A DNA stretch of 38,076 bases, from the NCBI GenBank assembly GCA_040755755.1, contig JBFLZW010000023.1:1-38076 (forward strand), in the 5' to 3' direction. This DNA is from a bacterium. GTDB taxonomy: Bacteria; SZUA-182; DTGQ01. Positions 35,217 to 38,076 of this stretch are shown one piece after another (positions within the stretch are counted from its first letter, which is position 1; each line of letters opens with the position of its first letter). A program made the translations under genes and the position numbers. The notes beneath the pieces are model-generated. The model was not told the DNA's origin, made no database searches, and was given only the letters and a program-made list of their open reading frames with translations.

Positions 35217-35254
35217 GGAGCCAGAAGCCAGAAGTCAGGAGTCAGAAGTCAGAA
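35217..35254. repeat. GCCAGAAGTCAGGAGTCAG simple repeat
   Basis: Imperfect array of CAGAAGYCAG/CAGGAGTCAG words, the same low-complexity type found inside the elements at 12874 and 35856. Here it stands alone upstream of the glycosyltransferase gene. Confidence 0.6.
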
Positions 35255-35449
35255 CAAATATAAGTATAAATCGCCGTTATTGGCAGAAATCCTGCATTTA
35301 CAATACAAATTCCTCTATGGTCACGATAACCTCAACTGATGGTTTGAAAAAATCCGAAAGCTCATTTTGAAATAATGGACTTTTCCGCCAAGTAACGAAT
35401 AGATACTAGAGTTAAGTTACCAGTTTTCAGTTATCATAAGGAAACCGAA

Positions 35450-35848
35450 ATGACTAACTATAGATTGACAAAAGAACTGAACATGCAGTTTGAGGAGACG
35501 TTGGAAAAAGTGTCGGAAGAATTGAAAAAATCAGACCTTCTGGTCTTAAGCATTATCGATTTGAAGGAAAAATTTAAGGAAAAACTGGGCATTGATTTCA
35601 GAAAATATGTGGTCCTGGGTGTCTGGTGTCCGCAGAATACGTATAAGGCCATTCTGACTGAAGAAAATATCGGTCTGATGCTTCCCTCCAATATCGCCCT
35701 CTACGAACAGGATAAAAAAACCATCCTTTCGGTCATTAAACCGACGACAGTCGCAGAAGTGTCTGATAACTCTGATCTTCAGGAGATTGCTATGGATATG
35801 GAACGCAAGCTCAAGAGAATATTCGATTCTATCACCGACCGCAAATGA
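35450..35848 (+). CDS. DUF302-family protein
   Basis: 132 residues. EETLEKVSEELKKSDLLVLS, IDLKEKFKEKLGIDFRKYVVLGVWCPQ and NIGLMLPSNIALYE are the characteristic blocks of DUF302, a small alpha/beta domain widespread in bacteria with no assigned activity. The cysteine in the VLGVWCP motif is conserved in the family. AAGGAAACCGAA precedes the ATG. Two repeat units lie just downstream. Confidence 0.9.
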   Translation: MTNYRLTKELNMQFEETLEKVSEELKKSDLLVLSIIDLKEKFKEKLGIDFRKYVVLGVWCPQNTYKAILTEENIGLMLPSNIALYEQDKKTILSVIKPTTVAEVSDNSDLQEIAMDMERKLKRIFDSITDRK

Positions 35849-35855
35849 AGAAGCT

Positions 35856-36087
35856 TATACTGCGAACGGCTGAATATTGAACTTTATTCAGGAGCCAGAA
35901 TTCAGGAGCCTCTGTCGCCGCAGGTTTTCAACGACAACTGGCGCTTGCCTTGACTTCTGAAGGCGGACTTTATACAATTAATGGCGAATATACTATAAAC
36001 GGCTTAGAACTGAACTTTTCCAGAGGAGTCAGGAGCCAGAATTCAGGAGAAGGTATGGCCATCTTAAGTGAGGAGTTCTTTTACCTT
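35856..36087. repeat. Tandem pair of TATACT...AACGG...GAACTTT repeat units
   Basis: Unit 1 starts at 35856 (TATACTGCGAACGG) and is followed by CAGGAGCCAG words. Unit 2 runs 35989-36087, starts TATACTATAAACGG and ends AGGAGTTCTTTTACCTT. Unit 2 is the same sequence as 13112-13006 read on the minus strand. At 12874 the two units face each other; here both point the same way. Unit 2 ends only 12 bp before the ribosome site of the gene at 36116. Confidence 0.6.
35950..35978 (+). promoter_or_regulatory. Candidate sigma-70 promoter for the selenoprotein-like gene
   Basis: TTGACT (35950-35955), a 17-bp spacer and TACAAT (35973-35978). It lies between the two repeat units, about 138 bp upstream of the ATG at 36116. 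Confidence 0.45.
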
Positions 36088-36115
36088 AACAGATAATTAA
36101 GGAGATCGGAAAAAG

Positions 36116-36283
36116 ATGAGCATCAAGCGAATTCTTGGAGCAGTTGTCGGAGGAATCGTCGGGCTTTCTCTGGGATATCTCAACCGCTGTATGGGTGGAG
36201 GCAGGGGTTGAGCTTTAACCGTCAGCCCCTGGTCAGGGGTAATCCTTGGCGCCGTATTCGGGTATCTGCTGACTCCGGAATGA
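36116..36283 (+). CDS. Candidate selenoprotein, small two-helix membrane protein (DUF6132-like)
   Basis: AAGGAGAT lies 9 bp before the ATG. The frame encodes 31 residues (MSIKRILGAVVGGIVGLSLG and so on), then TGA at 36209-36211, then 23 more codons to TGA at 36281. Read through, it is a 55-residue protein with two glycine-rich membrane helices (about 5-22 and 40-52). C25 and the TGA-encoded residue 32 lie in the loop between them. The layout C...G-x-U-x-L-T-x-x-P-W followed by ILGAVFG resembles DUF6132-type proteins, whose loop reads roughly GTCPIT-NP-W; the TGA falls where the family has cysteine. A SECIS-like hairpin lies 19 nt after the TGA (36226-36239). Family resemblance is from memory, not a search. 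The alternative is a pseudogene or a 31-residue peptide. Confidence 0.6.
36226..36239 (+). promoter_or_regulatory. SECIS-like hairpin after the in-frame TGA
   Basis: CCCCT (36226-36230), loop GGTC, AGGGG (36235-36239). The loop starts 19 nt after the TGA. Bacterial SECIS elements have a short stem-loop with its loop roughly 16-37 nt past UGA and a G in the first two loop bases; the E. coli fdhF element also has a GGUC-type loop. The stem is short and lower-stem pairing is weak. Confidence 0.55.
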
Positions 36284-36337: not shown

Positions 36338-38076
36338 TCATTCAATCTCTTCTTCCTCTTTCTCTTTGGCTCCAATATCCGGAGCCAGACCATTGAATAC
36401 TTCGTTCACGCCGGGAATCAGCTCGGCTGCATCAATGCAGGGAGAGTGCAGCATGAGGCAGTAACTGCTGGTCAACAGGGGGTCATCGAGGATGACCTTA
36501 TCGCCGACAATTCCCTTATCGGAAAATCCTGCCATCTGGTAGAAGCAGTTCTGGGATGCCTGTACACGGCCTTCGGCCACGATCTCCTCTTGATCATTCC
36601 TGTTCACACCCCTGCTGATGCCCCTGGGAAGGCAGGAGAAGATGTTATTGCGGACATCCGCCCGGCTGGTGGCATCAACGTGCAAACCGTCACCCGGCCC
36701 CTGGTTGAAAGGCCCTCCTTTCCCGTCAGCCTTGCCGACAATGGTGTTATGATATACCCTGCAATCTGATCCCTCCAAAAGCGCGATCTGATGATGGAGA
36801 CCTGCAGGATCATGGAGCACGTTCCGGACGATGCGAAGATTACTGCGGCTGATAGTTATCTGGCCGCCTGCGGCCAGGGCGTTCCGGTAAAATTCACATC
36901 CCTCGATACTTCCGGTGCAGTTGGTGGCTGCCAGGGCATGATGAGGACTGTTGCAGACAGTGATGCCCTTCAGGGTTATCCGGCAGCCGTCAATCATCAG
37001 TCCGCGGGTGCCATCTGTGCCGTTATTGTCAAATACCGTATCCCGGATATTGATTATTGCCCCGCCACTGGCTGCCAGTCCTGGTTTGGCACTTCTCTCG
37101 ACCCTGCCGCCGGTCATATCCAGGAGGGTTTCGCTGCCGCTGGCCATAATGTTCGGAGAGCCCTGCGTGCCGTCCAGACTGCACCCGCTCATCCTGACGG
37201 ATGCGCCTGACTGAACGGTAAGGTTTGGCCCCAGACCGCATTGACCGTTGTTGCTGATGGTGCAGTTTTCCAGCACTACGGAGGTTCCGGGGTCGAAGAT
37301 GCCGATACCCGCCCTGCCGCTGTGGCTGATGGTCGTATTTCTGATGGTGGCAGATGAAGCGCCGAGCACTGCCAGGCCGGCAGTCCCGCCGGTATTCTCC
37401 CCGGCAGTCCCCCCGTCACTCCCATCAGTAGCGCCATTATAGTCGAGCGTATTGCCGGTGATCAGCCCGGCAACCGACCCGCCGATAACCGTGATGCCGG
37501 GTGCGGCATTATATTCGATCACATTGTCGCGAATCTCGGTTACGTCCGAAGAGATAATGCCGATTCCGGCTGCTCCGTTGTGGTGGATCCTGTTCGTGGA
37601 TTCAAGTCTTACCACGATCCTCCCGGCTGATGAGCCCTCATGGCCGATTCCGGCGAGGGCATTATGGTGAAGGTCATTCCGGCTGATCTCACCAACCCTG
37701 GCCCCCTGAGACAGGCCGATCCCGGCTGCGCCGTTTTCGTATGACTCATTGTCCGTGATCAGCTCACAGCGTGCGCCGCCGCGCAAACCGATTCCAGCGT
37801 CATGATTGCCGTAGGTAAAATTATGGCTGATCTCCGATGCATGGATTACCCCATTGAGGCCGATACCGCTCCCCATCCCTTTGCGGCCTGCGCCGGTGAC
37901 CTCGTTGCTGATGATTCTGACATAGCCGGAGCCTGAATCCCCGCAGCGGCAGCCAATGGCAGCGTTGGCAGCCCCATTGACGTAATTGCCTTCGATCAGG
38001 TGATAGACTATTTTCCCGGTCTTTGGATCGAAGCCGCCGGTTTCATCGGCACCGATGCCTGCGCCGCACTCTCCGG
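36338..38076 (-). CDS. Right-handed parallel beta-helix repeat protein (5' end beyond window)
   Basis: The frame is open from the window edge to the stop at 36338, at least 579 residues; the ATG at 37876 is internal. The sequence is a long series of 22-25-residue rungs such as NRIHHNGAAGIGI, NVIEYNAAPGITV, NTLDYNGATDG, TISHSGRAGIGIF and CTISNNGQCGLG, the asparagine-rich PbH1 pattern of pectate-lyase/NosD-type beta-helices. The part visible upstream of 37876 also contains rungs (HLIEGNYVNGAANAAIG). The C-terminus (LTSSYCLMLHSPCIDAA, FNGLAPDIGAKE) is the usual end of surface beta-helix proteins. It is probably secreted. It converges on the candidate selenoprotein gene with 54 bp between. Confidence 0.9.
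   Translation of the reverse strand, partial: GECGAGIGADETGGFDPKTGKIVYHLIEGNYVNGAANAAIGCRCGDSGSGYVRIISNEVTGAGRKGMGSGIGLNGVIHASEISHNFTYGNHDAGIGLRGGARCELITDNESYENGAAGIGLSQGARVGEISRNDLHHNALAGIGHEGSSAGRIVVRLESTNRIHHNGAAGIGIISSDVTEIRDNVIEYNAAPGITVIGGSVAGLITGNTLDYNGATDGSDGGTAGENTGGTAGLAVLGASSATIRNTTISHSGRAGIGIFDPGTSVVLENCTISNNGQCGLGPNLTVQSGASVRMSGCSLDGTQGSPNIMASGSETLLDMTGGRVERSAKPGLAASGGAIINIRDTVFDNNGTDGTRGLMIDGCRITLKGITVCNSPHHALAATNCTGSIEGCEFYRNALAAGGQITISRSNLRIVRNVLHDPAGLHHQIALLEGSDCRVYHNTIVGKADGKGGPFNQGPGDGLHVDATSRADVRNNIFSCLPRGISRGVNRNDQEEIVAEGRVQASQNCFYQMAGFSDKGIVGDKVILDDPLLTSSYCLMLHSPCIDAAELIPGVNEVFNGLAPDIGAKEKEEEEIE

Follow-up and report, generated by a model that had tools for sequence, protein, structure and literature searches.

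An in-frame TGA at codon 32 of a very small gene in the window, the whole 38,076-nucleotide stretch of DNA analysed here, raises the question of whether this codon ends translation or encodes selenocysteine (Sec). The frame opens with an ATG at position 36116, reaches the TGA at codon 32, continues for 23 sense codons and closes with TGA TGA, and the mechanical list of open reading frames gives only 31 codons at this locus. An earlier note, made from the letters of the window, had proposed a selenoprotein gene here on the grounds of its AAGGAG ribosome site, the TGA at codon 32 and the 23 codons beyond it, and all three were read in the sequence as described. The second membrane helix that it had placed beyond the TGA was also recovered, with moderate confidence, in the AlphaFold2 model of the 55-residue protein, in which Sec lies in the loop between two helices (pLDDT 68, pTM 0.42, values from which the placement of the helices alone can be read). 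The comparison of the protein with solved structures gave no significant match. The features of the locus and the related loci are collected in Table 1.

Table 1. Features of the locus and related loci (positions are those of the window unless a genome or locus is named).
Feature	Position	Strand	Description or basis
Predicted selenoprotein gene, 55 residues, Sec at 32	36116–36283	+	TGA stop 36281–36283; homologue comparison
Ribosome binding site AAGGAGAT (AAGGAG)	36099–36106	+	Sequence
In-frame TGA, predicted Sec32 codon	36209–36211	+	Common column in 58 TGA genes; other homologues Cys
Cys25 codon, invariant, putative redox partner of Sec32	36188–36190	+	Joint alignment
First helix, residues 3–26	36122–36193	+	AlphaFold2, moderate confidence
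Second helix, residues 38–52	36227–36271	+	AlphaFold2, moderate confidence
Candidate SECIS hairpin	36225–36240	+	Stem 36226–36230 with 36235–36239; loop GGTC 36231–36234; outer G-T pair 36225/36240
DUF302 protein gene, upstream neighbour	35450–35848	+	E = 3e-16; 267 nt upstream of the selenoprotein gene
selB, selA and tRNA-Sec loci (L010, L011, L027, L003; L002)	G000 C31:87859–91283, C2:79295–81350; C7:658–751		
DUF6132-thioredoxin fusions	L102, L105, L115–L121, L123–L126, L146		Pontiellaceae phylum

The source genome (G000; 5.26 Mb, 97.6% complete) was found to encode the machinery for Sec decoding, with selA, selB, selC and selD, the genes that the earlier note had asked to be sought, all present: two tRNA-Sec genes above the Rfam cut-off, both with a UCA anticodon, two selB genes above the cut-off, one selA and one selD, the last with an in-frame TGA of its own. 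One selB adjoins selA and the other adjoins the second tRNA-Sec gene, and this arrangement suggests two parallel decoding sets. A tRNA-Sec above the Rfam cut-off was also found in 7/7 other checked genomes that carry a TGA form of the gene; an eighth genome included in the same check, G002, has no detected homologue of the selenoprotein gene.

The search of the genome contigs with the window protein as a single sequence found no homologue. Within the order of the window, the search with the Pfam DUF6132 profile returned two relatives, each with one TGA inside, and a search with an alignment of three proteins yielded TGA-containing homologues in Chitinispirillaceae, Chitinivibrionales, another Fibrobacterota genome, Pontiellaceae and Desulfuromusa. 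A TGA codon within a match need not encode Sec, and the sequence of each TGA form in the counts given here was therefore inspected. One candidate, L106, was rejected as a Sec form on this inspection: it is a Cys form, and its TGA stands at another position. In total, 58 TGA genes were verified, the window gene and 57 others, with the TGA at the identical column in all of them; the 57 are spread over Desulfuromonadia, Fibrobacterota, the phylum of Pontiellaceae and two relatives in the family of the window. The family occurs in 44 of the 277 genomes searched of Desulfuromonadia, the class of genome G013, where the TGA occupies the same column in each of the 44 and the Sec form is the only DUF6132 form found. 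Fibrobacterota hold both TGA and Cys forms. In the phylum of Pontiellaceae, where 68 of 388 genomes match, Cys forms prevail, and four TGA forms were verified among the loci read. Both forms can coexist in one genome, as in G009 (L079 and L091) and in G740, where the TGA form L098 accompanies a Cys-thioredoxin fusion (L146). Cys- and TGA-containing homologues, which the earlier note had asked to be sought, were thus both found, none of them ending at the TGA, and neither TAA nor TAG was seen at the TGA column among the homologues. A tblastn search of plasmids with a relative as query gave no match. In a tree of 61 columns, which is too short to settle how often Sec arose, the Sec and Cys forms cluster, with 3 label changes against 21.5 after shuffling, and the window protein groups, in this weakly resolved tree, with the Fibrobacterota Sec forms. 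As judged from these sequences, the TGA-containing selenoprotein family is present in at least four bacterial groups.

Against the DUF6132 profile (PF19628), the window protein scored 22.0 bits, just below the Pfam gathering cut-off of 23.2, and six close relatives scored 28–43 bits. The joint alignment of 48 proteins has U or C in every row of the TGA column (C32), encoded by TGA or by TGC/TGT, and the upstream cysteine, Cys25 of the window protein, is invariant as well. The TGA accordingly falls in the inter-helix loop at the conserved cysteine of DUF6132, where it had been placed beforehand, and the two helices around a Cys-pair loop that mark DUF6132 were found in the alignment and in the moderate-confidence model. 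The Cys forms of DUF6132 resemble the Sec forms in their length, their two helices, their glycine-rich sequence and their loop of the two-cysteine type, with N/S-P after the second position, but carry a second Cys where the Sec forms have Sec. The motif of the Cys forms is G/K-C-x-x-G-x-C-P-I/L-T-x-N/T-P and that of the Sec forms is C-x(about 4–7)-U-x-x-x-x-S/N-P-W-S-G, the spacing from Cys to Sec (about 4–7 residues) being more variable than the corresponding one in the Cys forms. Beyond the second position, C-P-I-T-S-N-P-(Y/W/F)-I-S of the Cys forms contrasts with U-x-x-x-S/N-P-W-S-G of the Sec forms, in which the W-S-G codons are part of the SECIS.

The sequence past the TGA was compared between close pairs of genes. 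Codon positions 1, 2 and 3 differ by 0.30, 0.05 and 0.42, respectively, on the 3' side of the hairpin, and by 0.10, 0.04 and 0.38 on the 5' side of the TGA. Second codon positions differ far less than third positions downstream, a pattern of protein-level selection that continues through the TGA. A genuine 31-residue frame, or alternatively a DUF6132 gene in decay that is interrupted by a nonsense mutation, with a relic of similarity downstream, would accord with the 31 codons of the mechanical list and with the unexceptional folding energy of the window hairpin, but is refuted, and can be given practically no credence, by the presence of TGA at this same codon across several phyla (58 genomes), by the lack of any TAA or TAG homologue seen at that position and by the protein-level selection downstream.

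The window hairpin, CCCCT-GGTC-AGGGG, has its loop 19 nt 3' of the TGA, the GGTC loop that the earlier note had described. Taken alone, its folding energy is ordinary for its composition (z = −0.01 against shuffled sequence); the window alone would therefore not carry the selenoprotein claim, and the case is made by comparison. Of the 58 TGA genes, 57 have the canonical motif, whose GGNC loop is set 19 nt beyond the UGA; in L053 the motif retains four core pairs out of five. Most TGA genes show GGUC as the loop sequence, a few have GGAC or GGGC, and L140 has UGGAU. This last gene (genome G061) is the only TGA homologue read with Met for Ser; by inspection it has a shifted hairpin, CTCCC-TGGAT-GGGAG, the register of which seems displaced, and it constitutes a natural test of SECIS plasticity.

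All five core pairs are present in 39 of 40 TGA genes, against 0.8/40 expected from synonymous resampling, in which the amino acids were kept and synonymous codons were drawn from local usage, and in 0/12 Cys genes. GGG is the codon used for the stem Gly in 39/40 genes, against 1/40 for the conserved Gly four codons further on. RNAalifold recovered exactly the same helix. The outermost core pair among the 40 TGA genes is C-G in 19, U-A in 14 and U-G in 7, which amounts to compensatory change. Changes on both sides of a pair exceed those in all 500 shuffles, from which sequence relatedness was not removed, and sliding the partners abolishes the signal. As the shuffles keep sequence relatedness, most weight falls on the synonymous resampling and on the comparison with the Cys genes. 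The lowest-energy fold differs from the hairpin in a few genes (L047, L053 and L063). The SECIS of E. coli fdhF has a bulged U, which the plain short stem found here lacks. A small loop starting with GG and a stem of at least 4 bp are shared with fdhF and with the consensus bacterial SECIS model (PMC13188914). The rules published for bacterial SECIS elements ask for an upper stem of 4–16 bp, a loop 16–37 nt past the UGA and a minimum free energy (MFE) of −7.5 kcal/mol or lower (PMC13188914), and the hairpin agrees with them in its stem of 5–6 bp and its spacing of 19 nt, which bears out the spacing argument made beforehand. The MFE of the window hairpin is −13.0 kcal/mol, and among the 40 TGA genes L053, at −7.4, is alone in missing the −7.5 limit, by a narrow margin. 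The Rfam search at the selenoprotein locus gave no match.

Downstream coding conservation would fit readthrough of any kind, and a UGA read by a near-cognate tRNA, for example that of Trp or Cys, would give a mixture of the 31-residue peptide and the full-length protein; the tolerance of Cys among the homologues also agrees with this explanation. It is nonetheless very improbable, given that a hairpin of SECIS geometry is confined to the TGA genes, that all the TGA-form genomes checked have a tRNA-Sec and that the counterpart residue in the homologues is Cys, the usual Sec/Cys exchange. The reading of the TGA as Sec rather than stop is thus supported by the machinery, the homologue column and the conserved hairpin, and positions 36116–36283 very probably constitute a genuine selenoprotein gene, a degree of confidence that covers the selenoprotein claim and not the function. 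The actual insertion of Sec at residue 32 appears almost certain on the same comparative grounds. SelB carrying Sec-tRNA would bind the hairpin just 3' of the UGA, and Sec would be put in at residue 32, as in other bacterial selenoproteins. The resulting protein, 55 residues long, would form a membrane hairpin of two helices, and Cys25 and Sec32 would lie at or within the loop between these helices.

A lead to the function of this protein was found in the company that the family keeps. A thioredoxin gene lies directly upstream of five of the seven Fibrobacterota Sec genes (L022, L024, L072, L076 and L088). Among these five, L022 adjoins a gene for a Pyr_redox/rhodanese/TusA/DsrE sulfur-transfer protein, one adjoins a Pyr_redox protein gene, and L088 also adjoins an ArsP-type permease with a heavy-metal-associated domain. 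In the phylum of Pontiellaceae, at least 14 Cys forms are DUF6132-thioredoxin fusions by sequence, a count that is no frequency, as the regions fetched were partly chosen for long open frames; Pfam confirmed 10 of the 10 tested. The fusion proteins have the same two-helix module as the Sec forms at their N terminus, here with a Cys pair, but differ in having Cys only and a C-terminal thioredoxin domain, the Sec forms being stand-alone. The neighbours in Desulfuromonadia are mixed, with no constant partner, and the nearest upstream gene in the window encodes a DUF302 protein, not a thioredoxin; the thioredoxin link therefore rests on the Fibrobacterota Sec genes and the Cys fusions of the Pontiellaceae phylum. 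The DUF302 gene is probably transcribed separately from the selenoprotein gene. In the spacers that flank the DUF302 gene on both sides, four copies of a 21-nt repeat around TCAGGAGCCAGAATTCAGGAG are scattered (35221–35255, 35888–35908 and 36029–36049). On the minus strand at 36338–38074, a gene that runs off the window encodes a large protein of the right-handed beta-helix/NosD-like type, in which AGIGL motifs recur.

The Sec forms carry on average 2.4 Lys/Arg in the first eight residues and 0.3 in the loop, and by the positive-inside rule this N-terminal positive charge suggests that the N terminus is inside and the loop outside. A loop facing outward could not be touched directly by a cytosolic thioredoxin. 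As a Cys-Sec pair in a membrane hairpin is tied to thioredoxin, thiol/selenol exchange is indicated. Cys25 and Sec32 would, with good likelihood, form a reversible Se-S bond, and a direct partnership with thioredoxin is somewhat favoured. An alternative is that the protein is a selenoprotein but not a partner of thioredoxin, its Cys-Sec loop serving at the membrane to bind or detoxify a metal, sulfide or a selenium species. The mixed neighbours in Desulfuromonadia, the ArsP-type permease beside L088 and the sulfur-transfer protein beside L022 speak for such a role, which is nevertheless doubtful in view of the thioredoxin genes that adjoin five of the seven Fibrobacterota Sec loci and the thioredoxin fusions. 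The membrane-anchored selenoprotein is probably, as far as gene order and fusions can tell, a redox partner of thioredoxin. A more specific and tentative proposal is a membrane selenium relay, in which the Cys-Sec loop might shuttle reducing equivalents between thioredoxin and other partners, either at the membrane or across it, and the protein would be among the smallest transmembrane selenoproteins. Under the same tentative proposal, the redox system would employ a Sec form standing alone in some lineages and a thioredoxin-fused Cys form in others.

The inventory of 2026 comprises 119 prokaryotic selenoprotein families and subfamilies, and DUF6132 (PF19628) is absent from it (PMC13188914). 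NCBIfam gave only weak, irrelevant matches to the family proteins, and the search of the open full-text literature for DUF6132 returned nothing but unrelated work on EamA (DUF6) transporters. The Sec form of DUF6132 thus appears to be new as a selenoprotein family, the decoding of UGA as Sec being itself known. The known prokaryotic selenoprotein families (PMC13188914) share the same decoding machinery, and a redox role with a Cys-Sec pair is probable here too. The finding adds a selenoprotein family not found in the published inventories, in a gene so short that the UGA leaves a 31-codon open reading frame that is easily missed. It offers thioredoxin as a functional lead for the DUF6132 family, whose function is unknown, and with the natural Sec/Cys pairs within one genome (G009 and G740), the reason why Sec is kept becomes testable.
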